Shown here piece after piece: positions 6,318 to 38,874 of a DNA stretch of 38,874 bases. Source of the DNA: Spirogloea muscicola (Eukaryota; Streptophyta; Zygnematophyceae; Spirogloeales; Spirogloeaceae); the NCBI GenBank assembly GCA_009602725.1, contig WELB01000232.1, forward strand, positions 128,683 to 167,556. The letters are read 5' to 3'. Under the pieces are notes generated by a model. That model had not been told where the DNA came from and did not search any database. It saw nothing but the letters and a program-made list of their open reading frames with translations. Both the position numbers and the translations under genes were made by a program. The stretch's first letter is position 1. The number at the start of each line of letters is the position of its first letter.

Positions 6318-8541
6318 ATGGCGGCGGCAAATGGGGACTGCGACTGCAGCGACGCCGGGGGGAATCTAGAGGGCGCGGCTGCCAAGGCTCCCGTGGCCAC
6401 GTGGGCAGCGTCAGCGCCACGCTGGACGGCGACGGGGCCCGCCAAGCCCAAGCCCAAACGCAGCCGCTCGTCCGATGTGAGCAGCCGCTTCGCTCATTCG
6501 TCTTGCTCAATCTCCTCAAGGCGCGGCAAGCNCAGCGGCGGCGGCGGCGGCGGCGGCGGCGCCGCCGCAGCAGCAGCGGGAGCCGCTGAGCCTGGACCTG
6601 AACATGCAGGCGTGGGCGCGGCAGCCGGAGCTGCGCGCAGTGCAGCCCGACGAGGCCGAGCACAAGCCACCAATCCACTCGGCGCTGTTTCCCGCCGCTG
6701 CTCGCGCGGCGGCGGCGGTGGCGGCGGCGGCCAAGCCTGCGGCGCCGCACCAGAGCTGGGCCTCCGACGGTGGGGCGCCCACCACTCAGAGCTCAGGTGA
6801 GCTGCGGCCGCAGGTCTTGACCATGACGAGTGGCCGTGCTGCACAGCTGATGTATGGGGGCTTTCAAAAGATTCGTAAGATTCACGGATCACATCACGCC
6901 TCCACACATACATAGTATCCAGAAACATTGCAGTACCAATGCAAACCAAGGAGCCGCTGTACGCTGCAGTCGTCGGCTGTGGCTCTGACGCCTGCTGCCG
7001 CAACGCTGGTGCGGAAATGCCGGCAGGCCTAGCTGGGCTGCTCCCGTCGCCGTCGGCGGCGGCGCCGGCCCAGCTTCAGCTCGAGCGCGTGCCGAGCCGC
7101 GACTGGAGTGTGGCAATGGCTGGCGCTGCGCCGGGTGCAGCTGCGGCGGCTGCGGCGTCGCGGTCTGAGGGTGGCCTCTTCCTGTCCAGCGACTCGGAGG
7201 CTGACGATCTGCTCGACGACGAGGGTGAGCAGCAGAGCTGCCGCTGCCATACCAGCGACGCCGGCCATGGCTGCCTGTCAGTGCCGTCAGCTGCTTACAG
7301 CAGCTGCCGCGGCAACGGGCGATCTGCCCGTTATGCAGACGAGACGCGGAGCGGGAAGAAGCGAGCTGCTGGCAAGCAACTCTCCAAGACCGGCGGCAGT
7401 GGCAACGCGCTGGGAGCAGCGGCGGCAGCTTCGCCGGCGGCGGCGCCGCCCGCGGCGGCCCTCTCGCACCTCATGACGGAGCGGCGGAGGCGGGAGAGGC
7501 TCAATGCGCAGTTCCTGGCGCTGCGCGGCATCGTGCCCAACATCACGAAGATGAACAAGTCGTCCACGCTGGAAGACGCGATCGACTACATCCGCTCGCT
7601 GCAGGGCAAGGTCGTGGCCATGGAGCGCCGCCTTGCCGCTGCTGAGGAAGCCGCCAGGGACATCAAGGTTCCTCCTCCCTCCCTCCACTTGCCTCCTCCA
7701 TCTTCCTTCGTCCACCTTCACCCTCTTACTTTCCCGAAGTTGCTGAGCTACCGGTGGTGCCTCCGCTGCCATTCTTTGCCGCAGCCGCTGGCAGTGAAGG
7801 AGGCCGCCGAGGACGCGGAGGCAGCGGGCTTCGTGGGCAGTGCTGGGAAGACTGGGAAGCTCGCGCCACCTGCGGCACCACCACCGCCGACGCCAAACTC
7901 ATCCCGCGAAGAGGCAGCGGGCCCAGCAGCGGGCGTCCATGTTGATGTCCGGCTTATTGACAGGTGATTGCTGCTGCCGCCACATCCGCGGCACAAGCAG
8001 GCGGATCTATTGGCGCTGACTGCAGCTGTTGGCTAGTCTGATAATGTCAAAATCGTCTCTGAAAGTTGTAAGCACTTGTTGACTAGCGGTAAAAGAACCA
8101 TCTCTCACCGCTGAGTTAGAGGTCTGGACTGTCTGAGATCCAGCTTCATCCCAATCTTTGGTCCTCATTTCCGTCCTGCTGCTGCCGTGGTTGCCATGCA
8201 GCGAGCAGGTGCTTCTGCGTGTGCAGTGCGCCCGGCGACGAGGCCTGCTGTCGGATGTGCTTGCGGCGCTGGACAGCACGCCGCTGGATGTGCGCCACGC
8301 TTCGTGCATGTCGTCTGCCGACTGCGTCAGCGTCCACATATTCAGCTCTGCGGTGGAGGGCAGCGGCAGTGGCAATTGGCACGAGGAGCTGGAGCAGAAG
8401 ATTGGGGATGCTGTCGTCAGCCAGCTCCGCTGCGCACGCCGCACCGGTGTCAGCAACGGTGGCAGCAGGGCTGACCACGGCGACGGCAGCAACGAGACTC
8501 CTCCCACCAAGCGGGGCCGCAGCAGCAGTCGTGGTGCCTGA
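6318..8541 (+). CDS. bHLH transcription factor with C-terminal ACT-like domain
   Basis: Predicted nuclear DNA-binding regulator. A phase-consistent model joins 6318-6476, 6571-6796, 6934-7667, 7785-7963 and 8202-8541 (545 aa). The bHLH domain is at about residues 303-355: HLMTERRRRERLNAQ (basic region), LRGIVP, then KSSTLEDAIDYIRSLQGKVV (helix 2). The basic region has the H-E-R spacing (H, +4 E, +8 R) that in this family goes with CACGTG binding. The C-terminus (about 424-480: VHVDVRLID, then QVLLRVQCARRRGLLSDVLA) fits the ACT-like dimerisation domain of many plant bHLH proteins. The N-terminus has a basic stretch (KPKPKRSRS, possible nuclear signal) and LSLDLN, an EAR-like repression motif. 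The middle is rich in Ala, Ser and Asp. Exons 3-5 are firm. Exon 1 and its junction are less sure, because an ambiguous base lies at 6532 inside the inferred first intron; an alternative start is the ATG at 6604. The intron 7668-7784 keeps the frame open if retained. Confidence 0.82.
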
Positions 8542-13498: not shown

Positions 13499-16154
13499 AT
13501 GGCCGCCATGGCCGCCTCGCTGGCCCGGCCGCCTGCCGCCGCCGCCGCCGCCGCCGCCGCGCCTCTCAGCAGCCGCGCCGAGGCCGAGCCCCGGCGCGGC
13601 CTGTGCCGCCAACGCCCAAGCGGCGGCAGCAGCTGCGGCGGCATTGGCGGCGGCATCCTCGAAGCTGCTCCCGCACGAAACAGCGAGCTCATCCGGTGGT
13701 CGCCGGCAGCGGCGGCGGCGGCTCGCCGAGTGGCGTGCAACGGCGCCGGCGGCGGCGGCTCTGAGGGCGCGGCGCTGCCCGAGGCCCTCCTCTTCGACTG
13801 CGACGGCGTGCTGGTGGACACGGAGCGCGACGGCCACCGCATCTCCTTCAACGAAGCCTTCCGGGAGATGTGGCGGAAGCAGCTCCGGAGGGCTCTATGG
13901 CGCCGCTGCGGCCTCCTCCAGCCACGAAAGGGCTTGAGCTTCAGGGTTTAGGGTTTAGGTTTCAGGGGGTTTAGGGGTTTAGGGGTAGGGTTTAGGCGCA
14001 TGGCCACCGCTCGTCCCTTGCTCTCATGGCGTTCCTGCCCGCCAGGGGCGCCGCCATTGTAGCTCAAATGGCCATGACTTCATCACAAAGTTGTATAAGC
14101 TCAAAGTAAATAGGAGGCTCCGTCCTGTATGCTGCAGAAAGGGCTGTACGTGGAGTGGGATGTGGACCTCTACGGCGAGCTCCTCAAGATTGGCGGCGGC
14201 AAGGAGCGGTGAGTGAGCGCCACTGCCACCACTACCGACGCCGCTGCAAGCGCGCAGTTGGTCAAGTTGCCGCCAGCCTCGGCTTTCACAATCCGGATCG
14301 AGTCTCCCGAGGCTCGGTCACCCACTCTTACATGCTCTCACCTGAATGTCTGCAAGAGCAGCGCGTCAGAAGCCTTACCTCAGTCGAGTCGGCTCGTCGG
14401 CCAAGGATACATTGATGCAGCTAAGCACAGAATGCACCAAACTGGCCGGCCATGTCAGCTGCGACACTTGCGCTAAACTTGGAGGAGCCCGCTGCCTGTT
14501 TGCCGCGCCTGTGGCCACCGCCACTGACAGGGTCTGCCTGGAAACTTCGTGTTGTGCCGCAGGATGACAGCACATTTCAACAAGGTAGGGTGGCCCGAGC
14601 ACGCGCCGGCAGGCGAGGAGGAGCGCAAAGCCTTCATTGCGGAGCTGCACAAGCTCAAGACGGGCCTCTTCATGAACCTCGTGGAGACGGGCGCGCTGCC
14701 ACTCCGCCCCGGGTTTGCCAGGTGCCGGCCTGGAGCAGCAAATCTGCACCCCCGAGATTAAGGCCCAGACATTGAGGCTTCATAGCAAGGTCTCCAGCTT
14801 TGTGGCTTAAGTGTAAGCTGCTGCAGGGATTCAGAAAGAAGAACAAGGTCCAGTTTTGGGTCTGGTGCAGGCTGGCTCACGCCACTCCTTTTTGGCCTTG
14901 CTCAGGCTGGTGGACGAGGCCCTTGGCAGCCAAGTCAAGGTCGCCGTCTGCAGCACGTCCAATGAGAAGGCGGTGTGTCCCTGATTCAATGCCCCAGTGT
15001 TTGTAGAACATCTGCAGCTAAGCACCAAGTAGCCGCCAGCAGCGCAATGTTCAGGTTCAGATGGCACAAGTAGCACTTCAAGTTACCACATTATATCCGT
15101 TGCTCTCTAGTTGGCGAGAGCAGTGCCTGCAATATTGATCCTAGTCGAGCTGTTGCGGAGTTTGATTGTGCACACATTGATACTGCACACATCGATACAC
15201 TCGCGCCAGGTGTCTGCCATCGTGCGAGTGATGCTCGGTACGGAGAGGGCGAAGGCCATCCAGATATTTGCAGGAGATGTGGTCCCCAAGAAGAAGCCAG
15301 ACCCGGTGAGGGCATCTCAGCGTGCAATATGTGACTGTCTGTGTGACACCTAGTTGCTTGTGGTTGACTTGAAAGCACGTGAGCTTGCATCATCCCTGTA
15401 GCAATAAGGCCTTCTTGATTAGGCAGCTGACTTGCTCCCGTAGCCGAGCTGTGGCAGGCCATCTACCAGCTTGCAGCTGAGACGCTGGGCGTGAGCTCGG
15501 CCAGGTGCCACACCTCGATGCAATTCTACCCTTTGGACTCAATAGCTGCTAAGAGTTGCCCCAGAAAGCTTACACCTCAATCATAAGCGCATTAGTGCTT
15601 TTGCAACGTCTCTTGGCCACTCCGACTTGCGCACAATGCGCATCACATACATGCGTGAGGTCACCTCATCTTTAGGCAGATGCAGAGCAAAAATCCGCCA
15701 GTGGCCGTGCTGAACCCAAAGTCCCCAAGCGGGCATGCTGGTCATCTTTCAGGTGTGTTGTCGTTGAGGATAGCCACATTGGCGTAACGGCGGCCAAGGC
15801 CGCGGGCATGACTTGCGTCGTCACCAAGAGCGGGTCAGCGCCCCAACTTCTGGAATTTATGTCTATACCTCACGACCTCTCAAGAAGCTCAAGCCCCTGG
15901 CTGAGCTGAATACTACAAACTCCTCCATCCACCATCCATCTGGGATGCATGGCCTGGTTATGAAGCAACATCACCCACCGTCAGGCTCCACTTGAGCCCT
16001 CCATCTGAGGCGTCCTCTTTTGTGCAGCTACACTGCTGATGAGGATTTTAGCGCGGCGGACGCTGTATACGAGTGCATTGGCGACAGCCCCACGGACGGC
16101 TTCAGCCTTTTCACACTTGCCGAGCTTCTCTCGGCTGCCAAGCTCCCGGCATAG
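13499..16154 (+). CDS. CbbY-like HAD phosphatase, plastid-targeted
   Basis: Resembles plant CBBY (haloacid dehalogenase superfamily), which dephosphorylates xylulose-1,5-bisphosphate, a misfire product that inhibits Rubisco, in the chloroplast stroma. Exons: 13499-about 13945, 14138-14208, 14563-14721, 14906-14972, 15210-15305, 15458-15504, 15753-15833, 16028-16154 (about 364 aa). The first about 90 residues are rich in Ala, Ser and Arg, like a transit peptide. HAD motif I is LLFDCDGVLVDTE (nucleophile near residue 100); then ISFNEAF, VEWDVDLYGELLKIGGGKER, motif II AVCSTSNEKA, AGDVVPKKKPDP (motif III Lys), and VVVEDSHIG (motif IV acid). All key residues are present. Exons 2-8 have clean GT-AG junctions with matching phases. 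The exon 1 donor is uncertain: the only phase-compatible GT found lies inside a TTTAGGG-like tract, and about 25 unexpected residues follow FREM. It converges with the TsaE gene, 53 bp away. Family assignment is strong; the exact substrate is inferred. Confidence 0.88.
13939..13999 (+). repeat. Interstitial telomere-like repeat (TTTAGGG type)
   Basis: Imperfect tandem copies of ttcaggg, tttaggg and tttagggg at the exon 1/intron 1 border of the phosphatase gene. The plant-type telomere unit is TTTAGGG. Confidence 0.8.
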
Positions 16155-24224: not shown

Positions 24225-27200
24225 ATGTTGCGATGGTTGGCTGCCCTGCTGGGTTGCCTTCTCGTCGTCACATGGGTCGTGCAGCTTGCAGCCGCTGAGG
24301 GTGCCACTGCCAGCAATGCTGATGGCACTGAGCAGTGGGGCTACACCGAAGTCAAGACAGGTATTCGACTCCAACACCTGCCGATGCACATGTTGCTGAT
24401 TCTTGGACCCAACACAACCACATGAGGTTGTATGCTGGCTTTCGAGCAGCGCGCCGTATGCGCCGCCTGCCACTTGGCAGGAGGATAATTGCTGCATTGC
24501 TGAGGCAGTGTAGGTGCCCACATGTTCTGGTGGCTGTACAAACGGCAACCCAGTGAGGGCGACCTCAGGAGCAGCAGCAGCGGTGGCAGTGGCAAGGACG
24601 CTGGCAATGGCATGACACCCGTCATCCTCTGGCTCCAGGGCGGCCCGGTGCGATGACATTACCAGCAAAATCCATCAGCCTCTGACATAATGAAGTGACT
24701 GCTTTTACTGACTGCAACCTGTATGCCTAAGAACAACCCTTGACTTTTAACCTTACCTCACCTTACCTCACCTCATATAATCGCCCTAAACCCTAAACCT
24801 AAACCCTAGAGTGGCTCCTGCTGTGAGAACTCAGCTCTGGATATCAGCTTTCCTCTACCTGGTGGCCTGGTGGGTTGCAGGGTGCATCAGGTGTAGGATA
24901 TGGCAACTTCATCGAGATCGGGCCGCTGCGCATTGACCTCTCACCACGGCCCGCCACCTGGCTGAGCGCCGCGCACCTCCTCTTTGTGGTAAGTTGTCAC
25001 CAACTTACTTGCAGCCGCTGCTGCAACATCCAGCGGCGCTGACCTCAGTGGCGGCTGGTGCCGCTACAATGCTGCTAGTGAGCGCCACATTCTGTCCTGG
25101 GGTCTCACAGCGTGCTTGCAGCATCGCTGCCGCAGGACAACCCCGTCGGCGTAGGCTACTCCTATGTGGAGCCCGGGGAGCCGCTGCCAACAACTAATGC
25201 AGCAGTTGTCGCCGACCTCATCACGCTGCTGCAAGACGTCCTGGGCAATGCAATGGGCGGCTGCCTGCAGGCCAGCCCCTTGTTCGTCTTCGCCGAATCT
25301 TATGGCGGGAAGTTTGCCGTCGAGCTCGGCGAGACGCTCGCACGGGACTACAGTCTTGCCGTCAACCTCCAAGGTGTGCTCCTCGGCGCATGCATCCACA
25401 ACAGCCTGCCACTCTCGCCGCATAGGCGGCCTTGCTTTATGCAGCTGCCTCTGTGACTGGGCGCCTGGGGCTGATGGCAGGCGTGGCGCTCGGCGACTCG
25501 TGGATCTCTCCTATTGATTTCATGGTGCGACTTGAAGTTTCACATTGATTTCATGGTGCGACTTGAAGTTTCACATATACAGAACTAAGAGTGCAGCACA
25601 TATTCACCATTAGTGAATTGTGAGCCATGTGTGATGTATTTGGCAGGACGAGAGTAAAGAGAGGCAGGGAGGGAGGGCAGGAAGGTGGGCGATAGGGAGG
25701 GAGGGAGGAAGGGCAAGAGGGATCTAGCGGGAGGAGAGCGGGTGGGAGAATGAGCGGACATGAAGGAGGGAGGGGGAGAAGAGAGGGAGGGAGGGAGTGC
25801 TACTACCACTTCATTGGAGATCTTAGCCTAAGCCCTGACCTATCTCAAGTCTGGAGGCTGACGCTGTACTGAGCCGTGAAGACGTGGCTGCCGTGTGCAT
25901 GGCTACCGTCCTCAGCGGGCATGGAGCCCCATGCTACGGACGCTGTCGCTAGTGGACGACAATGAGGCAGATGTCATCGCCAGGTCAGCACCCGTCTCCC
26001 AGAGTCAGGGGTTCTTTATGCAGCGATTTATCAAGGAGACAGGACTCGATAGGAGATGCCCTCATACTCCTCACTTCAAGCTACCTGTTAACCTGTGTCC
26101 ATTTCCAGGGTACGGTGTAGGTTCGCTAAATATTCCTGCACTGGACCTCGTTTGCATTGTCCAACAAATAAGGTTGCACTCTGCATGACCGACGTAGTTG
26201 ATGTTTCGACTCTTCCTGACTGTGACTAGCATGGCGCTTGTTTGATGGACAGCTTTGCCACTGCTGCAGAGGACGCTATTAGCCGCAGCGAATTGCAGAA
26301 TGCGACATTGATTTGGGCAGCCCAAGAGGGAAAAGTTGACGAGCTTACCGACCATGTTGTAAGCTCCCCAAAAAATTTCCAACACTAGCCACTCCTTGAT
26401 GCAAAGCGGCCGCTACAGGTGAAGGGCAGCGCTTGCAAGCGCGCCTGCTGATTTCGTTACCTGGTCATCTTCATGACAAGCAGAATACCTGCTGGTCTTT
26501 GTCTTACAGGACTTCTATAACATCCTGAGGCACAACAGCGAGAGCGCATCTGGGCAGAAGGTTGCAGCAGGACAAAGCCCTGGGGTGGTAAGCACTACTG
26601 AGCAGAGTTTACAGTACCTGGCAAAGAGGCGGCTGCAATCATGGGAGAGCGAGGAGCTGGCTGCGCTCATGAACGGTCCCGTCCGGAAGAAGCTGGGCAT
26701 TATTCCACCTAACCTGACGTAAGTTAACTGCTCCCGCTGTGTGGCACTTTAGCCAGGCTTTGCAGTGGCTTATGGGTGGTGCAACAAACTGGGTCAGTAG
26801 ATGCTGCAGCTGAGGACTGCATGGCTTGCTTGTCAGTTGGGGAGAGTCGTCATACGCAGTTTTTGAGGCCCTGTCTGCGGACATCATGCTGAGCGTTGCT
26901 GATAAGGTCAGCCCCTGGCCAATTACTCAGCGCAAGTATCGTACCATATTTCACTGCGTCAATGCAGCCAGGTATTCTGCAGTAGAAGCACCCATGCTTG
27001 CGGTGCTGGCACCAACTTTGCCATCAGAGGCATGTGATTGCAGGTTGATTCCATCCTCCAACTGGGGGTGCACGTGACTATCTACAGTGGCCAGGTGACA
27101 TTGACCTGTGATATGGTGCTAGCTTGCCTGCACTGTGATACAGGTGCCACAGAGGCGCCATAGCTTAACGATTTGCTAAATTCTCACTACAATCTTCGTC

Positions 27201-27930
27201 TTGCTGCACAAGCCGAATTTGGCTGTTCACGAGCATGGCCCACCTTGCAAGAGTCAAAGTGACCAACCCATGGTCACTTTGACTCCTCCTGCAGCTTGAC
27301 CTAATTTGCTGCACCTTGGGAACAAAGTCCTGGTTGCAACGGCTAAGGTAATCATTAGCCTTCCGCCCAGAGCAATAGGACGAGCCCTTGATTGTAAGCC
27401 TTGTCTTAGTGCTTGACTGCACCAATGATTGCACTGCTGTGCTCTGATTGCCGCAGCTGGGAAGGCCTCCAAGCATTCAATGCGGCTCCGCGGGCGCCCC
27501 TATACTGCAAAAAGAGCTCCACACAAGCCTTTGCGAAGCGTTTTCGCAACCTTGCCTTCTACTGGGTCATGAATGCTGGCCACATGGTGAGCTCCATATT
27601 GAGAGGGCTGTCAGCAACACCACGACGCACAATGCGCCGCAGCCAATTGGGGCTGTTACTCTTGGTTATATATGGAGCTCAATGACCATCAACTTGTACT
27701 GGAACTCCACTTCTTTCTCAGATCAGGTGCAATGTATCATGACCTAGTATTGCTAGTCTGTTGGTAGCAGTGAAGATTAATGTGCTTGGCAGCTGTGGCG
27801 CAACTGACCTTCCTTGCGATTGAGAAAGCCTGCTTGTGGCTTTCAGGTCCCAGTGGATAACCCGTGCATGGCATTGCGCATGGTCCGCTTGATAACGGGC
27901 AGCTTGCAAGGGGACATCTCATCACAATGA
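24225..27930 (+). CDS. Serine carboxypeptidase-like protein (SCPL51/RISC type), complete
   Basis: Family S10 peptidase; removes C-terminal residues at acid pH in vacuole or extracellular space, though some plant SCPLs act as acyltransferases. Thirteen exons, all phases consistent: 24225-24360, 24514-24647, 24881-24988, 25136-25373, 25481-25524, 25916-25983, 26253-26358, 26510-26718, 26837-26906, 27044-27094, 27295-27347, 27457-27586, 27847-27930 (476 aa, usual length). The N-terminus MLRWLAALLGCLLVVTW is a signal peptide ending near AAAEGA. Then WGYTEVK, AHMFWWLYK, the oxyanion region LWLQGGPGASGVGYGNF, and DNPVGVGYSYV. The catalytic triad is intact: Ser181 in AESYGGK, Asp390 in SGQLDLIC, His448 in MNAGHMVP. 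AESYGGK, not GESYAG, marks the SCPL51/RISC subgroup. Odd points: a 31-bp duplication covers the exon 5 donor and a perfect hairpin precedes exon 11. Physiological substrate unknown. Confidence 0.93.
24783..24810 (-). repeat. Interstitial telomere-like repeat in SCPL intron 2
   Basis: ccctaaaccctaaacctaaa then ccctaga: about four CCCTAAA units, preceded by a short ccttacctca tandem (24753-24775). Confidence 0.85.
25513..25574 (+). repeat. 31-bp exact tandem duplication over the exon 5 donor
   Basis: The unit attgatttcatggtgcgact plus 11 more bases occurs at 25513 and 25544. It contains the last codons of exon 5 and its GT donor. Using the second donor would include an in-frame TGA, so only the first supports a full protein. 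Confidence 0.9.
25640..25805. repeat. Purine-rich GGGAGG tract in SCPL intron 5
   Basis: About 160 bases almost entirely G and A on the + strand, with repeated gggaggga units. Confidence 0.8.
27251..27285. other. Perfect 15-bp hairpin before the exon 11 splice acceptor
   Basis: GAGTCAAAGTGACCA, loop ACCCA, TGGTCACTTTGACTC. It ends nine bases before the cag acceptor at 27292-27294 of SCPL exon 11. Confidence 0.92.
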
Positions 27931-29591
27931 CAACGCCTTATTGTACTGCTTGTACGACATTTGGAGGTCATAGTTTATTAGAAAAATTATCACAATGTTA
28001 TAGACAATAAGTCTAATGTACTTGTTGAAACGTTATTACAGTATTTTAGACAGTAGGTCAAAAAAGTTGATACGGAAGTTCCATGTATAGATGTGGCGCA
28101 AGGTGCACAAGTGGAGACATTCAGATGCTCCTGAGAAGAGGTGGAGTACCGGCAGGTGGTTCCTAGTTGTCACATTCGTGTGGAAGCAATTGAGCAACGC
28201 GGGAAATAGATGCAGAAGCAAGCCAGCATTCTAAGAAGCTCTTCAAGAATTTCATGGGTCCTCAGATGACATGGCCATGGTCGACAAAGTTGGGGGAATT
28301 CTTACTCTTCGCGCAGTCTAACTGACGTGCAATTACTAGTGCACAAGAAGCAAGGCGCAGATGTGCGTTGTGGTACCGCTTGTACCACAAGCGCTGAGGT
28401 TCACCTGCATTTCAAACGTTAGCTGCAACCTTGAAGCAATTGGTCGCACCCTTGCAGGAGCACCAGATTTCTGGTGTGTAGGGGGCATCTGGCAAAGCGG
28501 GCTCTGACAACCCACATGCACCAAGCTCGCTGAGCTGACGTAACTGCAGCTACCACCACTATCCTCATCATCTTGTCATGGAGAGCAGTTGCCCAGCATG
28601 CACGTCTCTGCTTGCCTTTGGTGGCTTGTGCGGGACGATGTATGCATGGCTTGCCTAGTTTCTTATGGACATAATTCCTATGGACATGATGAGTTTCTGC
28701 CAATTGGCGCACGTCACAGCCACAGAAGGCATGTAGTGCAAGTGCGCCTTCCTAACAGTCAGGACGCCATTAGGTAAATGAGCCGGACGCCAAAACAGAT
28801 AAATGAGCCAGCCGTGATCACTCTACACATGTGGCAGCAGCATTTCTAGCACAAAGTCATCAGCGTGGAGGTCTTACATTAATGATTACCTCTCTGTATT
28901 GGCACCCCCAATTGCACTTGTGGCTGAAGAGATTGGGTTTGGAGCCAAGAGGACAGCAGCTTATTACAGTAATTGCAATATACATAGTGCTCTTTCTGGC
29001 ACTTGAGGGTTGCACGACAGCTGACTACCCACGGACTTGGTACGTGAGCCCATTGAGCTGGTGTAGATAATCTGAAGCTTTGCTTGATGGTAGCAGGTTT
29101 TAAATGCAGACACGGCGTTGCTGTACACTGCGGCTTGGACTTATCTGCTCTACTACTCTCATACAAGGAACTCTTCTGATCAAGGGCGGGACCACATCCG
29201 CCCGGTCAAATAACGTGGTCTGTATACCTATTGACTTACAAGCTCCTTGCCAACACCTATGCAGAAGATTGGAAGGTCATGCTGGTAGATTGTATGCTCT
29301 CATATTGTGAACTCTGCCGCAGTCATGCTGATTAAGTAGTAAAGAAAGGTTGAAGCACACTGAATATCTGCTCGTGACTACTGCAATACCGAGGCATGTT
29401 TCAATCAGCAGCAATATCAGTTCACTGTAGAAGAGCACACAACGTACACAATTGACACAACCAACACAAGCAATGACTCGCCTCAGTACAGTCTGTGCCC
29501 CCCTGTGATGCACACTTGTGCATGCGCTGTTGGTTGGCCACAGCTCCTGCGTCCATGGAGGACCCACTTTCTCTGTGGGGTTATGGGCTAT
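27931..29591. other. Intergenic region, no gene seen
   Basis: AT-richer than the rest of the window. Includes the probable 3' UTR of the carboxypeptidase gene. Short open frames on both strands have no recognisable domain. A small direct repeat (aaatgagcc) occurs at about 28776 and 28801. Confidence 0.5.
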
Positions 29592-29632
29592 TCTTTTGGG
29601 CTGGCCTTTCCCAGCCACTATCCTCATTACAA
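29592..29632 (+). repeat. Diverged 3'-UTR hairpin module
   Basis: ttcttttgggctggcctttc, ccagccactatcctcatt: the hairpin and flank of the retrotransposon 3' UTR, isolated from any ORF remnant, about 6.5 kb from the nest. Confidence 0.7.
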
Positions 29633-29736
29633 TCATTTCCATATAAAGTCTTGCAGACCTAGTTTAGGACTATGAGGTCAGCAGATTCAAGCCCTTAAAT
29701 TGAAAGAGCTTCCTTTCGGTACATAAGATCAAAGAC

Positions 29737-29898
29737 ATGGCACTTCACATCAAAGCAGCAGCTCTGCTCATCGGGCGGGCAGCCAAACCAATCCCCCAAC
29801 AGATTTCGATCCTTGGGCTCTTCGAAAAACCCGTCCCCGTTTCCCAAACTACGAAGGGGCCAGAAACACTATCTCAGAACTGTGTAGCTGTAAGTTGA
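29737..29898 (+). CDS. Possible first exon or 53-aa ORF, unknown
   Basis: ATG opens MALHIKAAALLIGRAAKPIP then QQISILGLFEKPVPVSQTTK and ends VAVS-stop. The composition is unlike the repeats around it, and a strong donor-like GCT/GTAAGT lies just before the stop (at 29887-29895), so it may be an exon that splices on. No downstream partner was found before the cytochrome c gene, and no family was recognised. The basic, Ala-rich start could suit a mitochondrial presequence, but this is speculation. Confidence 0.2.
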   Translation: MALHIKAAALLIGRAAKPIPQQISILGLFEKPVPVSQTTKGPETLSQNCVAVS

Positions 29899-30227
29899 GT
29901 CCTCTGACTTTTCTGTGAGTTGCCACCTCGCAAGCTGACCGGCCTCACTTTATCAAGAGCCCTTAGCCCTAGCCACTGCACATCTCACCTGAGCCGCCAC
30001 GCCCCAAGCATCGTGCCGCATCCCTCGCCAAGCCTTTGCCTTGACGACGCTGCCTTTTGTGACGCCGCCTTCAGCACTGCTGCCGCTACAACCACTGTTG
30101 GCATCGTCAGCAGTCGCTACAAGCCAGTCGTACATGCGGCTGCGTAACTCACGACATCTACACCGGTGCGTTACTTGATCAACAGCAGAATATATACCAT
30201 CATCTCGTCTGAACTTGGTGGAGCGGA

Positions 30228-30971
30228 ATGAGCAGAGCCCAGACCAAGGGGTTGCATCACCGGCACCACCCCTGCCGACCACCCGGCGATGGTGCCGCAG
30301 GCCGCAAAATCTTCGAGGAAAAGGTGATCTGGACTTTACGTCGGCTTGCTCAGCGTGGCCTGCAACCTTAAGCGATTGGGGCAGAGGCTGTCCGACTTCA
30401 TGCATGCATGCCCAATACCTGTACTAGCATGCAACACCATGAGTAAGCACTATGTCGTGGTGTAGTGCGCGAGCTGCCACACAGTTGAGAAGGGCGCACC
30501 GCACACAGACAAGGGGCCCAATCTTGGCGGACTTTTTGGACGTCCAGCGGGTTCTGCGCGCGGCTATCCGTATAGCCCGGCGAACCTCGTCAAGGCTGTG
30601 GTATGGAATGAGGAGACGTTGTACCAGTACCTCGAGGACCCCAAGAAATTCATTCCCGGTGAGCAAGGGCGCAAGGCAAAGCATTGCTCGACAATGACAA
30701 CTTGCAAGCGTGCAACTAGACAGCAATCAGCAATCAGCTCTTGCGGCTGATGGATATCAACATCATCAGATTGCACAAACGCCAGTGACTTAAGAAGCTC
30801 GTCAGAGACTGACGTGTAACATGGTAAAGCTGAGACGGCTTTCTATTCGAAACATATCTGTTTGTGGCAGGCACAAAAAAGGACATGGAGGGTCTGAAGG
30901 ATCCTCGGGATCGGTGCGATGTCATTGCCTACCTTGAAAATGCTACGCAGATGGAGCATTTAATAGCATAG
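30228..30971 (+). CDS. Divergent cytochrome c paralogue lacking the axial Met80
   Basis: Class I cytochrome c fold, homologous to the mitochondrial intermembrane-space electron carrier between complexes III and IV. Exons 30228-30323, 30466-30658, 30871-30971 (129 aa, phases 0 and 1 agree). Visible: [13 protein letters not shown], the heme-binding CASCH (Cys33, Cys36, His37), [23 protein letters not shown] (Trp59 and Tyr67 of the horse numbering), [10 protein letters not shown]. After this, normal cytochromes have MVFxGLKDP. Here the sequence is [19 protein letters not shown], the same length, so Met80 is replaced by Lys and a Met sits two residues later. One residue is inserted before GPNL. 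The start ATG is the only in-frame one in the exon, and a TATATA lies about 38 bases upstream. Intron positions match those of the neighbour at 32184, so the two arose by tandem duplication. Could be a decaying copy, but the frame is intact. Confidence 0.85.
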
Positions 30972-31631
30972 AAACCACGGAGACAACTAATGCTCGTCGT
31001 GTGTAGCTGCAGAGAGGAACTACATCCAAGCTCTGCCCTATATTACATGCTTGGAACTACGAAGCCTGTAGAAGAAGTTGAGACTCTTCTGAGGAATTGC
31101 TGCATAGCAATCACACTCTTGATCGCTCATGTGCCGTCTGACCATGGGTCTGATGAATGCCAACCAGGTTGCAACACAAATGCCCGACTCTTTGGCAGTA
31201 GAACTGCTAAGGCTGTGCACCGGCTCTCCTCTGATCTATCACGACCATTACTTATGCAACATTCTGGGCTGGCCATACTCAGCAGCCGCACCTTGAGGAT
31301 TAGCCAAGCCTCTGCGCGCCCCCCTATGCACCCTTTCTTTGGTATACCCTCTCTGTTTCTGAGTGCCACCTCGTACAGCAAGAGCCACTCGCGAGCCGCC
31401 ATCTGCACGTACCGAAGCTGGGATAAATAACCGAGGATGCTGCCAACCTGGAGTAATGTCCGTCCCACTGTGTAGCTTCATGTAAGGAGAGGTGGCTAAT
31501 GTAAGAGTGGCATGCGAGCATTATCTAACAGCGAGAGGTACAGATGGAGCCAACAGCGATGCTACAGGGGGAGAAGAGGGCTGGGGAAAGAAACGAGGGG
31601 GCCCACGGCGTTGGGGCTGGGGTGGGGACGN
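30972..31631. other. Intergenic spacer between the cytochrome c genes
   Basis: No gene or known repeat recognised. Ends at an ambiguous base (31631) before the GA tract. Confidence 0.45.
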
Positions 31632-32092
<461 letters not shown>

Positions 32093-32183
32093 GGGGGGGA
32101 AGGCTTGAGCTTATGCTGCCGACTTTATATCAGGGCCCGAAGGCAGTGGGCCATGCAAGACATGGGTTCACTTGGAGGACGCC

Positions 32184-33255
32184 ATGACTTCGACGCCACC
32201 GCTGCAGTCCGCGGACGCCGCAGATCCCCAGAAAACCTGCACCGACTGCGTGGGCCTTGACGGCAAGCGCAAGCCTGGGTGGTCGTGCGCGCCACCCTGC
32301 CGCCCTGAGCACGGCGAGAAGATCTTCAAGATGAAGGTTCTTGCAAACCAGAATCATATGATCATTTTAATCTACGTCCATGTTGGAGGAGGTCTCAGTC
32401 CTGCTCAAGTTCCTGCAATCAGCTGGCATCACTCGCCTCAGTGAAGCGGGTAGGTGGCCTGCGAGTGGCACTAGTCACACGCTTGCGCGAGCTGGGACTG
32501 GTGCCACCGCATAGTACGCACCTTTGCAGGCCCCTCGCTGCTGACAAGGACAGGGTTAGTGCAGGTTCTGAAATGATAGCTGCAGGCACTGGACAGCAGC
32601 TTACGTGAGACGCTGACGCTTGTATAGACACGTACTTGGCTGAATGGGTTCCTTGCTTGTGCCATCATCTGGCAAGCAGTGTTCGCAGTGCCACACAGCG
32701 GAGCGCGGGGGTAAGCACAAGCTGGGCCCAAATCTTGGCGGCCTTTTCGGGCGCGTATCGGGCACGGCGCCGGGATACGACTACAGTCGGTCGAACCGCG
32801 CCAAGGCGATCGTGTGGAATGAGGCGACGCTGTACGAGTATCTGGAGGCACCCAAGAAGTACATCCCAGGTATGCTTGCACATGCCCACCTTCTCAGAAC
32901 CCTATCATGTAGACCTTTGTGGACCAAGTCAATATGTAACAATCTGCAGTGCTCTTGCACTAGCTAGTGTCGCAACAATTTACTGAACCAATTTTGCATT
33001 CGCAAGCCCCGACTGAGGCCCACGCAAGGCTTCCCTCCGCACCATGCAAGATGTCTAAATGCCTGTGATCTGCAGGCCCTGCAATCCGTGGCTGCTGTGT
33101 TGTCACTGTGGATGCTGCATGTAGGCACGAAAATGGTGTTTGTGGGGCTCAAGGACCCCCAGCATCGCGCAGACCTTATTTGCTACTTGCGAGAGGAGAC
33201 AGAGACGTGCGCTGTACACCAGTGGCGGCACAGCCATCATGAGCTGCACGACTAG
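32184..33255 (+). CDS. Cytochrome c (mitochondrial type) with N-terminal extension
   Basis: Soluble electron carrier of the mitochondrial intermembrane space. Exons 32184-32336, 32680-32869, 33125-33255 (157 aa, phases 0 and 1 agree). The core has HGEKIFKMK, heme-binding CSQCH (Cys52, Cys55, His56), [33 protein letters not shown], Met118 in [11 protein letters not shown] (the Met80 equivalent) and [12 protein letters not shown]. All conserved heme contacts are present. Plant cytochrome c is about 112 aa. Here about 41 residues precede the core, with four cysteines (CTDC, SCAPPC), and about 15 His-rich residues follow it ([10 protein letters not shown]). No splice acceptor near the core would remove the N-terminal extension, but the real start may differ. 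Likely the functional cytochrome c of the pair. Confidence 0.88.
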
Positions 33256-34071
33256 CTGTACATGTTCAATTGCAGAAGCCTGCTGGCTTCTGTACTGCCT
33301 CTACCAATGTACCTCGCAGCTCCATAATGCTGGCCCAATCATGCATGAACGACACAGACCATGATGAGCACAGTCTGCGAAGTAGTGCTTGCAACTTTCC
33401 CTAGGTCTCAATGAGGAGCAGCTGTCTCTGCATGCATGACGGAGAGCACTGTCCAGATCCGCTGGCTTACCCTGCAGAAAATGCACTCCCCCACCATGAC
33501 ATGTGTTCACTTGCTGCCAGTCCAACCATTGCTGATGCTGATGCTAAGGGAAGCCATGGAAGTGCAAGCATGCATCAATCACCGTCCTGACTGTGCCGTT
33601 TGTAAGATGCAAGTAGCCACTGTCCATTGTCATATGATCACTACTGGACGCTTGCCATCAGTGCAGTACTACTGTACTATTCTACTTATGTACGCCTGAG
33701 CAGACAGCCACTGCAGCAATGAGGCAGCAGCTAGACCTCCCTAAGAACTGCGAGCTGTCAGGTCATGCCTATCTTTCCACCTCATGTGACTGCAACTGGT
33801 GTTGTAGATGATTACCACGTCTCAATATACATAATTTATCACGATATGCCAATGTCTACATTTGAGAGAAATTTACAGCCCTGTTTTGTGGGCCTCTACA
33901 ATACCCAAGCTAGGACAAGCTAGACAAGCTAAAAGCTTGTCTCATAAGTGAGACAATGAAGCCCCTAGCCCCAAGCCATGTTTGCCTTCTCCACTATATC
34001 AGTTGGCGACTTGAATTTGAGGGGCAACACAGCAGCTTGACCTAATTTCAGAAGCTATTGTGCTTTAGCCA
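33256..34071. other. Intergenic region, no gene seen
   Basis: Contains a small perfect inverted repeat, gacaagct-aaa-agcttgtc, near 33926. Otherwise nothing recognised. It must hold the 3' UTRs of the convergent cytochrome c and DeSI-like genes. Confidence 0.5.
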
Positions 34072-35869
34072 CTAGGATTGAACTCCCATGCGGCTGCCAC
34101 CACCGATACCATACCTTGCCATAACTCTTTTGGTCGCCAGAGCCGCTGCCTCGCTGGGGCCCAATCCACCACCTTGCATGAGCAGCGAAAACTCCCTCAT
34201 GATCTCATCCTGGACCACCTTCTTAGCACCAAGTGGAGCGGCAGCCACAGGTGCAGTGCCCCGTGCCTCCTGCGCAACAACGGCCTCCTCATCTTCGGGG
34301 CGGGGTCTCTTACTGCTGCCCACATTGATGGAAGCTTCAGGTGTCGCAGTCTTGTGAGAGGAGGGATCCTCTGGAGAAGATGACGTCAATGTTGAGGCAG
34401 AGCCTCCATTTGCGCTGGGTCCTGAGTCCGCTGATGTCCTTGACATCACAGATGGTGATGGTCCAGTTGCAGTTGCGCTTGAGCGCGAAGCTGCAGGGGC
34501 AGGCGCTGCTGCAGAAGCAGAGGCCCCAGGAGTGGCCGCAGTCGAAGCTGGTGGAATCTGAATGCTGGCAAAATTGATGTTGGATGGACGTGGGAGCTGT
34601 GCAAGCTCTGGCGCAGCATTGTTGCGCAGCGATTTCTCAAATTGCTCAAGCATTGGAACTGCAGGACAGCAACACAGCAGCCATTAGAGTTGCCAGAATG
34701 AAAACGTGGCCACATGTATGTATAGACAGCCTTTGGCAGGCACCGACCCTCACAGTCCAGTCAGTGAGTCCACTAAGACTTTCGCTGGGCACTTTCCACA
34801 GGACTGTACCTATGAGAGCCCCCGCCGGTGTGTTGAGGACGTCAGTTGGCAGCTGCAGAATGTGCTGCGGGATGCCATCCCCCAGGAGGAACTGTACCAC
34901 CTCGTCACTGAAGTTGTTGCTGCACACACGCCCTCAAGGGTGCACGAAGGCTTCTCAATTGCAAGTCCCTCATAAGCCATACTTTGGTCAGAAGCTACTC
35001 GCCACCATGACATGAAAGCCAGCAGGTGATATCAACAAATGCGAGAATCAAAGGGCGCACCAGTTGTGGCGAAGGAGGCTGTATGTCTGCACAGTGTAGC
35101 GAGGGCTAATCTCACTCAGGAACTCCTCAAAGAGCTCTTGGGGCACGTCCGTGCGGCCCAACTCCAGGACCTTCACAGGGCGGCCGTATTGCGTGCTGCT
35201 TGGCCTGCCGCTGCAGATGCCACCGCCAAACCAGTATTCCTTGCCATAGACGACCACGCCTGTGTGCCTGTCAGGCGCTCACTGAGGCTCTCAGCAGGCG
35301 CGCCACAAACTTGAGCAAAACGGTGCAACGAAGTACCCATCTGCTGCACTACTTATGACCAGAGAGCTTTGACTTTGCAGTGCCATTAACGCACCCAACT
35401 GCAACTCAAGTTGGTCATGTTGCAATCTGAACACGACTATCCAGTCAGACATGTTGGTTCATCGCATGAGATGGTGCAAAAGTCTGATAGTACTATGACT
35501 AGAGCAGGTGCACATCCTTGCAACAACCGACTGCAAACTCATATTAAGAATGTTGCAATCTGAACACGACTATCCAGTCACACATTTAAGGTGCATCGGA
35601 AAATACGGTGCAGGTACTCTGATAGTACTATGACCAGAGCAGGTGCACGTCCTTGCAACAACACACAGCACCGAGCTCCAGAAGATGGCTGTGACAGACA
35701 GTGGCCCTAATTGTGCTGCCAGGCAATCAGGGAATGGTGGGGGAGAATGGCGCTCGGGTTGACTGAGAGCCTCACCAAATTGCCTCAATTTCCTTGCCGA
35801 GGAACGACTTGGACATCTGCTTGGCGAGGCCCTGGGAGAGGTCGTAGATGTGCAGCCGTATGCGCTCGC
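34072..35869 (-). CDS. DeSI/PPPDE thiol isopeptidase (deSUMOylase-like), first exon unresolved
   Basis: PPPDE-family papain-like peptidase; animal DeSI-1 removes SUMO, and plant members are predicted deSUMOylating or deubiquitinating enzymes. Exons on the - strand: 35869-35776, 35267-35061, 34919-34810, 34658-34072 (phases agree; about 332 aa plus a short first exon). Visible: RLHIYDLSQGLAKQMS, LGKEIEAIWHTGVVVYGKEY with the catalytic His, YWFGGGI, then LLRHNCNNFSDEVVQFLLG with the catalytic Cys, and LPTDVLNTPAGALI. The Cys codon is split by an intron. The tail has FEKSLRN, about 110 Ser/Ala/Pro-rich residues, then DEIMREFSLLM and SEAAALATKRVMARYG, a C-terminal motif I recall from plant homologues. 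The exon carrying the start must end in phase 1; two short candidates (ATGs near 35965 and 36106) fit and I cannot choose. Confidence 0.86.
35418..35662 (-). repeat. Tandem duplication (period about 132) in the DeSI-like intron
   Basis: tgttgcaatctgaacacgac, tatccagtca, ctgatagtactatgac, agagcaggtgcac and tccttgcaacaac occur twice in order, starting near 35418 and 35551. Confidence 0.85.
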
Positions 35870-36298
35870 CTGACTGTGGCAGCCAATGGGGTCGTCAGCG
35901 CCGGTGGAGGAGGGCAGGCAGCGTGCCGTGCTCGACGCCGCCTCTCAAGACACTCGCTGCCATGCTCTCGAAGGACGGGCCCTGGTGCGAGCGAGGCTTC
36001 TGACGGCGGCACCAACAAGTGCAGTCCAGCCAGGGGTCGGGTGTGCTGCGGAGCTGCCGGGCAGACCTGGCTCGCGCCGTCGGCGGCGGCGGCGGCACCG
36101 CCCATGTCGAGAGCCACGAGAGCCCCCCGCCGGAGGCGACGAGGCCGCGGAGGCCCGCCGCGGCTGCGCCGCGCAGGACCAGCCTCCGGAGCTCGGTACC
36201 GCTGGGCCTGTCGGCCCCGAGCGCGAGCACGGACCACCAGCAGCGCCTGCTTGCGCTGCGGCCGCGTGAGCAGCGCGGCGATGGCGGGCGGAGGTGCC

Positions 36299-36332
<34 letters not shown>

Positions 36333-36904
36333 GACCTTCGAGCGTAACGGGAGATGTTATGAGTGTGAAGCGGCTCGTAATAGGAGGGGGCACTTGCCAC
36401 GTGCCTTACTTCGATTCGACAGGCCGCCTGCAGGCGGGGCCGGAGTCGGGCGGGCCCGGAACCGCGGAGCCTGAATCGGATCGGTGGGCCAATGCTACCT
36501 GCCTCGGCACGACGGGGGCCCACAGTGGTCCGGGACTGTCGACTGGCCACTTATTAGGACCTGCGGCCGGCCAGATGGCCCCGGCCGCGGCTTCGTCCGC
36601 CCGCGGGCGCATTCGCTGCCGGAAGCTTCTGGAGGAGCGCAGCGGCGACGGCACCGTTAGGTTAGAGCAGCCGAGCTCGATTTCATGTCATAAATTTACC
36701 CACGCTCGAGCCGCAGGGTGGCTGCCACGCGCCAACCTGCGCGGCCAACCCGGCGGCACTTGCGGCGGCGTCGGCGGCCGTTGCGGCGGCATCGACGGCA
36801 ACGGCGGCGGCGGCGGCGGCGACAGAGTGTTGCTTAAAGTAACGGCATTTGGCGTTCGTACTTTGGGAGATAGCGAGATACGCAGAGTCGGCGAGCGGCG
36901 CCCA
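35870..36904. promoter_or_regulatory. GC-rich divergent intergenic region
   Basis: Lies between the DeSI-like gene (-) and the DUF218 gene (+) and must contain the first DeSI exon and both promoters. It contains GGC/GCG triplet runs (36295-36333 and 36760-36822). The long open frames on both strands are low-complexity and show no domain. Confidence 0.45.
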
Positions 36905-38321
36905 ATGCGGCCAGGCGTCGTTGTGCTGGGCTGCGCCGTGCGGCCCGACGGCGCCTGCGGCCCGGCGCTGGAGGCCCGCGTGCGCGCCGGCGCGGCGCAG
37001 CTCGCCGCTTGCCGCGCCGCCGCGCTCTTCCTCACCGGCCACAACAGCGGCGGTCCCGGTACGTGCTCCCAGCACGGAGTGATCACCTGCGGGTAGCCTC
37101 CGTGGTGGCTCGCGATCGAGCGGCTGGCTGTGCCTCGTTAGCTCCCGCACTTGAGCGACGGTGAGGTGCCCCGCTCATCAGAGCAGCCGAGCTTTCGCTG
37201 AGCCGGCATGCTCCGGGGCATTTGCTCTGGCTGCGACCAATGCCTCTGCACAGTCACGGAGGCCAGGGCTGCCGCGAAGCTGGCGCGCGAGCTCGGCGTG
37301 GCCGAGGAGCGCATCGTGCTGGAGGAGCGGGCCTCCAACACCTTGGAGGTGCGTGGCAAGACCCGCCCGGCAGTGGCTGGAGGTGCTCTCAGGGGAGCCG
37401 CAAGTGCTGATTGGGCCAGCTCTTCCTCCGAGCATACCTGCATTGCCATGGCTCTGCTTATCTGCGCTCACCGTGGTTTTGCGTAAGGCACAAGGACATG
37501 CTGTGCGGTCAGAGCTGCCTTAGGCATGCCTGCTTTGACTCCGAGTCAGACAGCCAATGGCAAACCATATGTTGTGAACGAGATGTCCTCGAAGAAAGCA
37601 CGACTGCTGCAAATATATTCGAGAAGGCCCATGACTCTTAGCAATACAAGCTTGCTTGGCACATCTGATCTCCATTTGCCTTTGACAATGACACAGAATG
37701 CATTATTTGTCAAGCCGCTCGTCTTGGAGCGGGGGATCACGGAGCTTATCGTGGTGACATCCGACTTTCACATGAAGAGATCCTCCTTCATCTTCGACGA
37801 GGTCTTCTCTCAAACAAGGGTCAAGGTTGGCTACTCGTGCCATTATTGGTTGCTTATACGTCACATGTCCCGCTTGACTCGTCACTCAAGCATTCATGAG
37901 TTTGGTGGGCATCGTTCGTTTTGCCTCTCAGAAGAGCCCAGTTGACTCTATCGTGCTTTTATTGATGAATCTGCATTTTCATACGTTCTGCCCCGCAGCT
38001 GACTTATGTTGAAGCTCCTTCTAATTATGGACCTCCGGAGAGGTTGGCTCGCGCCATGAAAGAGGTGAGATTGAGGGTCGCAGCCATTTACATACTTGTA
38101 TGATAGTTTATCGCACATACTCTGTAGTCTACTGATGTCTACACTCAGGTCCTTTCTTTCATCGACCAATGCATGGCCAGCTAGCTCAGAGGTCCTACTT
38201 GCTGCATGCTGGAAACACAACATTGACCAAAAGGTTCTTCCACTCTTATGTGCAGGAAGCTGGACTTCTGCAAGCCCAAGTGTCATTAGGTTGGCCCATC
38301 CTGGGTTCTGCCTCCGCGTAA
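36905..38321 (+). CDS. DUF218/YdcF-like domain protein
   Basis: DUF218 proteins (bacterial YdcF, SanA, ElyC; also in fungi and plants) share a Rossmann-like fold. Their biochemical role is mostly unknown, and E. coli YdcF was reported to bind S-adenosylmethionine. Exons 36905-37058, 37254-37348, 37697-37825, 37999-38064, 38256-38321 (169 aa). Every junction is GT-AG and in phase. Visible: MRPGVVVLGCAVRPDG (first strand and the family's VVLG start), ALEARVRAG, LFLTGHNSGGP (S/TGG loop), TEARAAAKLARELGVAEERI, VLEERASNTLEN (the conserved E..S.NT.EN motif, split by intron 2), GITELIVVTSDFHMKRS (VTS.FH.. motif), YVEAPSNYGPPERLARAMKE. There is no signal peptide or membrane segment, so it is probably soluble. 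It is divergent from the DeSI-like gene and shares its upstream region. Confidence 0.88.
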
Positions 38322-38759
38322 CTTTCGCATAAGGTGCATGTATGCCTGTGCCTCGAGCGTAATTCAACGTTCATCACAGTGGTCCCGCAAGGTGCCCATC
38401 TATATGAACAGAGATGCGGCAATGTACATTACAGCACCGAACCTCGTGCGACGAAGTTCTTGCCAACCGTGAGCTTCCAGCAGCGCGCCGCACTGGCCGA
38501 CAGTTTAGAGTGGCTGGGGTGGCATTGCTAATTGGCATATTGTCAAGGTCGGCACAAAAGCAAGAGCCATGAACGCTGCGAAAAAAAATTGCCGTCTCTT
38601 TCATTGTCAACCCGTTAAATTCACCTAGAGCGAGCCAACCGTGCTCCACAGGATGGTTAGAGTGGCCGTGAAGAGTGACCGTGTCAGGTCCCTGGCCAGT
38701 TTGGAGAGCCACTGTTCTGGCCAGAGAGGAGCAGCCTGCGCGCACGCAAGAGAAGGGAG
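38322..38759. other. Downstream region, no gene seen
   Basis: Probably the 3' UTR of the DUF218 gene and spacer. No gene recognised on either strand. Confidence 0.4.
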
Positions 38760-38874
38760 CGAGTTATAGAGGGGGGTGGGGGGCGGGAGAAGAGTGAGAG
38801 GGAGCTGGAGAGAGGGACGGAGGGAGGGAGGGAGAGAGAGAGAGGGAGGGAGGGAGAGAGAGAGAGAGAGAGAG
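38760..38874 (+). repeat. GA/GGGA purine-rich tract at window end
   Basis: Mixed gggagg and gagaga units continuing to the window edge, like the tract at 25640-25805. Confidence 0.9.

Follow-up and report, generated by a model that had tools for sequence, protein, structure and literature searches.

A genome that probably belongs to a green alga contains, in addition to its ordinary cytochrome c genes, an intact one that encodes lysine at position 80, where the textbook mitochondrial cytochrome c has the methionine that acts as its sixth ligand. The gene, hereafter gene A, lies in a stretch of 38,874 nucleotides (the window) belonging to an assembly of 153 Mb in 471 contigs, which its introns suggest to be eukaryotic, and judged from its sequence it looks like a gene for a working, specialised heme protein. 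As the best explanation we propose that gene A works as a specialised paralogue of mitochondrial-type cytochrome c, one that would take no part in respiratory shuttling and would carry a low-potential heme whose distal site is either His/Lys-ligated or labile; we hold the chances for and against this proposal to be even.

A cytochrome c gene encoding lysine at the axial ligand position

The predicted gene model comprises three exons and encodes a protein of 129 amino acids in an open frame of 129 codons before the stop (Table 1). Residue numbers throughout are those that we take horse cytochrome c to have. When the protein was aligned with rice and animal cytochromes c, its second loop lysine fell at position 80, the following aspartate at 81 and the methionine at 82, so that gene A carries Lys80-Asp81-Met82 where the ordinary cytochrome c genes of the genome, and a second paralogue about 1.2 kb downstream (gene B), carry MVF. 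The initial annotation had read the last exon as encoding Lys in place of Met80 in an open frame that keeps CXXCH and the Trp59 and Tyr67 positions, beside a neighbour gene with MVF at 80-82; the gene model and the alignment bore out this reading, the neighbour being gene B with its GTKMVF. It had also described the length as unchanged, which holds for the distal loop, where there are no extra residues, but not for the whole protein, which has one inserted residue near position 27/28 and a longer N-terminus, with 19 residues preceding Gly1, ten more than in the ordinary gene. The N-terminus of gene B is likewise extended, with four cysteines arranged as C-x2-C ... C-x3-C, all of them also found on contig C368, which carries the locus a second time, and could possibly form a metal or redox site.

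Gene A matched the Pfam profile PF00034 (Cytochrom_C) with 42.6 bits against a cut-off of 21.3, whereas its score against Cytochrome_CBB3 (26.1 bits) was under that profile's cut-off of 27. Among 104 PDB sequences its best match was rice cytochrome c (1ccr; E 1.2e-37), with which it shares 58.4% core identity and the pattern PKKxIPGTK. Retained residues include F-x3-CxxCH, Arg38, Asn52, Trp59, Tyr67, Lys72, Lys73, Thr78, Lys79 and the stretch PKKFIPGT. Of the features of class I cytochromes c, the CxxCH near the N-terminus and the PF00034 match are thus present, and the Met80 sixth ligand is absent. At core columns uniform across the six rows other than gene A, both copies of gene A deviated at Gln16, Lys27, Tyr74, Met80, Phe82 and Leu94; besides Met80 to Lys, these changes include Phe82 to Met and Tyr74 to Phe, and Asp81 is a further difference from the mitochondrial protein. 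The core net charge (Lys and Arg minus Asp and Glu) was 0 in both copies of gene A versus +6 in both copies of gene B, +8 in the ordinary protein, +6 in rice and +7 and +8 in two other PDB rows. Since the C368 copy has the same lysine at the axial position, gene A is a paralogue by descent, and its product would be an ordinary His/Met cytochrome c only if Met82 replaced Met80 as the ligand. The GC content at third codon positions was 0.65 in gene A versus 0.93 in the ordinary gene, which may point to low expression.

Table 1 Features of the window (C368, contig with the second copy of the locus)
Feature	Position	Strand	Description
Gene A exon 1	30228..30323	+	Frame open, donor GT at 30324; versus C368, 3 bases and one amino acid differ
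Gene A N-terminal extension	30228..30284	+	Histidine-rich, with a cysteine (HHRHHPC); one residue differs in C368
Gene A intron 1	30324..30465	+	Predicted, GT...AG, 142 bases, phase 0, between Lys13 and Cys14
Gene A exon 2	30466..30658	+	CASCH heme motif (30466-30480) through Trp59, Tyr67 and PKKFIPG; 7/193 sites differ versus C368
Gene A intron 2	30659..30870	+	Predicted, GT...AG, 212 bases, phase 1, inside Gly77
Gene A exon 3	30871..30971	+	Lys80 codon AAG 30879-30881, Asp81 30882-30884, Met82 30885-30887, stop 30969-30971
Gene B	32184..33255	+	Three exons, as below
Gene B exon 1	32184..32336	+	Extended N-terminus with four cysteines
Gene B exon 2	32680..32869	+	CSQCH ... PKKYIPG; intron positions and phases match those of gene A
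Gene B exon 3	33125..33255	+	Met80 kept
GA repeat	31632..32091		Perfect (GA)230, 460 bases, between genes A and B; GA tract there in C368 too
Stretch shared with C17	36306..37856		1,551 bases, 100% identical to C17:143264-144814; C368 copy about 88%
Other open frame	6879..7964		Helix-loop-helix DNA-binding domain, 48.9 bits; sole Pfam match among 10 open frames scanned
Telomere-like repeat	13943..13996		Short, interstitial, plant-type (AGGGTTT)

Gene A in a second copy of the locus

The second copy of the locus on C368 aligned with the window in six main pieces of 79-88% DNA identity that span window positions 25717-38873, with a gap inside the GA repeat. Its gene A is intact, and KKDMEGLKD is unchanged, with Lys80, Asp81 and Met82 identical. 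We considered a base-calling error in the A-run beside the Lys80 codon and discarded it, because C368 keeps the same three residues despite one silent base difference there, which makes such an error very unlikely.

Between the two copies of gene A, 19 of 390 exon sites differed, 11 of the changes being synonymous and 8 nonsynonymous. The resulting estimates (dS 0.133, dN 0.0275, dN/dS 0.206) rest on two copies and 19 differences. When 19 changes were simulated 5,000 times under neutrality, so few amino-acid changes arose with P 0.006, and a one-sided Fisher test on synonymous versus nonsynonymous sites gave P 0.0009. The introns differed at 50 of 352 aligned sites, but the contrast between exons and introns is uneven, because intron 1 diverged by only 7.0% (10/142 sites and one gap event) and exon 3 by 8.9% (9/101 sites); intron 2 differed at 40 of 210 aligned sites, with 4 gap events. 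Four of the eight amino-acid changes fall in exon 3, beyond the loop and none within KKDMEGLKD. The loop stretch itself has about one base change in 33 where several would be expected at the intron rate, and the unchanged loop in so short a stretch proves little alone. Neither copy has a stop or a frameshift, and the splice signals are kept, so that neither the lost constraint nor the broken frame of a pseudogene was found. These comparisons indicate that the coding sequence of gene A is under purifying selection. Neutral decay, which the initial annotation had named as an outcome that would refute its reading and for which the C368 comparison stands in for population data, is disfavoured as a long process, and a very recent loss of function may have occurred. 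For gene B, the same comparison gave dN/dS 0.182, with differences at 82 of 587 intron sites and 21 of 474 exon sites.

Ordinary cytochrome c genes and the probable origin of the paralogues

Ordinary Met80 cytochrome c is present in three copies in the genome, on contigs C89, C43 and C66, all with GTKMVF. The two complete copies encode an identical protein and differ by 6 silent changes in 339 bases; exon 1 of the C66 copy was not found in C66:20000-29000. Exons 2 and 3 on C66 are the same as those on C43 (0/227 differences), though the surrounding aligned pieces are only 72-95% identical. Among PDB chains the ordinary protein matched rice best (202.6 bits; next 158.8), which fits an alga of the green lineage.

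The ordinary gene is interrupted in Gly29 and between Lys73 and Tyr74, whereas in both gene A and gene B one intron separates Lys13 from Cys14 and the other splits Gly77; on account of these shared positions the two genes appear to form a lineage of their own. In a tree of 10 rows gene A stood on a long branch of 0.7 changes per column, and the tree did not settle whether A and B are sisters. As Met80 is present in gene B as well as in the ordinary gene, the change to Lys80 would most simply have arisen on the branch of gene A, which the ordinary Met80 genes elsewhere in the genome would have left free to specialise.

Searches for further exons, copies and relatives

A tblastn search with three exon-3 peptides in the window and the first 20 kb of C368 detected no Met80-type exon besides gene B's own, and the remaining listed matches had E above 0.03. 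An alternative Met80 exon for gene A, which the initial annotation had raised as the other refuting outcome and which this search of the DNA addressed in part, was therefore rejected, none belonging to gene A having been found. Nor did DNA queries from 30150-31100, 33300-38700 and 26000-30150 (together 26000-31100 and 33300-38700) reveal a third copy of the locus in the same genome, C368 giving the only other long match. For the 33300-38700 region 40 of 70 candidates were scored, and 38 matches were listed; beyond the window and C368, these were the identical 1,551-base stretch on C17, which may reflect a recent duplication or an assembly duplicate, and short repeat-like matches.

A protein search of the genome gave 16 matches, from which one on C109 (E 2.55) was dropped as chance. 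The PF00034 profile found no match in the genome among 8 candidates scored, we think because exons were scored singly. No relatives of gene A were found in viral contigs (4 pattern stretches), nor any of the ordinary gene or gene B (4 and 1 pattern stretches, respectively). In prokaryote genomes gene A gave 59 pattern stretches and one called relative, L035, which was dismissed as chance, the match being limited to the His-rich residues 2-17. The profile of the heme-attaching enzyme HCCS (PF01265) matched nothing in the genome and likewise nothing in any of 14 control genomes, so this search was uninformative. By title and abstract, the literature search found no natural Lys80 cytochrome c, and such a protein could still have been published; one paper mentions Lys80 a single time, for a bacterial cytochrome c552.

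Possible heme ligation and function

The CASCH motif would anchor heme c, and His18 would serve as proximal ligand. The F-x3-CxxCH spacing, described in PMC4158909 as the spacing that HCCS recognises, is kept in gene A, and the same source describes the axial Met as dispensable for heme attachment. At the sixth site, Lys80 or another distal lysine could bind the iron, or the site could be only loosely held. Once Met80 is lost and the iron has lysines 73, 79 and 80 in its vicinity, one would most simply expect a low-spin His/Lys heme, whose potential would be low and much lower than in respiratory cytochrome c. Ordinary cytochrome c has a potential of about +250 mV. For Lys-ligated variants of the yeast protein, PMC12188557 reports about -140 mV.

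A gene A protein of such low potential would be unable to take electrons from cytochrome c1 as usual, which fits the lost positive charge; the front-face lysines 8, 13, 72, 73, 79 and 86 (in our own numbering) are still present, and the protein might therefore still dock on complexes III or IV. Instead of transferring electrons from complex III to the oxidase, the protein could serve as a low-potential, or as a ligand- or peroxide-reactive, heme protein in which the lysine acts as a removable gate on the heme site, with a role involving peroxide, NO or low-potential partners. A salt bridge to Asp81 could keep Lys80 away from the iron. The more specific proposal, that gene A encodes a natural cytochrome c of mitochondrial type, maintained by selection, in which the gene itself supplies Lys80 as sixth ligand, with a permanently low-potential His/Lys heme and a non-respiratory function in peroxide, nitric oxide or redox sensing beside the ordinary genes, is one that we put forward tentatively, as possible rather than probable.

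The initial annotation had compared Lys80 with the alkaline form of cytochrome c. The comparison stands in that a lysine in place of methionine is the expected ligand and that the potential is low (PMC12188557), but it is loose, because the ligand in the alkaline form is given as Lys73 or Lys79 (PMC12188557, PMC7139943), not residue 80, and displaces a Met80 that is still present, whereas gene A has none. The closer analogue is the Met100Lys variant of cytochrome c-550, cited in PMC6879331 as an engineered protein with lysine-histidine ligation, a class I cytochrome c in which a lysine codon likewise takes the place of the axial Met; that variant is a laboratory mutant of a bacterial protein, whereas gene A is natural and its lysine ligation a prediction. 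Natural His/Lys hemes are described for heme 2 of AvTsdA (PMC6879331) and for the hemoglobin THB1 of the green alga Chlamydomonas (PMC11904497), and these sources note the lysine ligands in the few such hemes as labile. In both the natural lysine axial ligand is established where that of gene A is a candidate, and AvTsdA is a bacterial diheme enzyme and THB1 a hemoglobin, whereas gene A encodes a mitochondrial-type cytochrome c.

Alternative explanations

If the distal loop slipped so that Met82 bound the iron, a possibility that the initial annotation had also raised, gene A would still encode a His/Met cytochrome c, though one whose loop is unusual. Met82, which replaces Phe82, is identical in both copies, as this explanation would have it, but the loop has no extra residues that would permit a slip, two lysines and an aspartate precede the methionine, and position 82 of cytochrome c is normally packed alongside the heme and not bound to the iron; we consider it quite unlikely. 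An empty sixth site, or one filled by water or hydroxide, would make gene A a peroxidase or gas-binding heme protein with Lys80 and Asp81 in the second shell. Met80Ala cytochrome c is described as hydroxide-bound at neutral pH (PMC7139943), peroxidase activity is reported to rise once Met80 leaves the iron (PMC10041640), and Asp81 could pair with Lys80. Against this explanation, which we regard as unlikely, gene A retains each of the distal lysines 72, 73 and 79, and Lys73 and Lys79 are reported to bind the iron of ordinary cytochrome c when Met is displaced (PMC12188557, PMC7139943).

Gene A might also be a duplicate under relaxed constraint or in decay, one that died recently or has no function. 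Its long branch, its third-position GC below that of the ordinary gene and a dN/dS of 0.21, compared with no amino-acid change among the 6 differences in the ordinary gene, would suit such a history, but dN/dS is well below 1 and frame and splice signals are preserved in both copies, which makes decay decidedly improbable. Finally, Met80 could be supplied in the mature transcript, for example by splicing gene A exon 2 in phase to gene B exon 3, since the second introns of both genes interrupt Gly77 in phase 1. In both copies, however, exon 3 of gene A is open and has an acceptor of its own, and no other Met80 exon turned up in the window or the first 20 kb of C368, so that we judge this route extremely improbable.

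Implications

The literature on Met80 loss that we encountered concerns mutants, pH and lipid binding. If the proposal of a functional Lys80 paralogue is correct, a natural protein kept by selection would offer a test of what a Lys-liganded cytochrome c is good for in a living cell, and of how a respiratory electron carrier can become something else.
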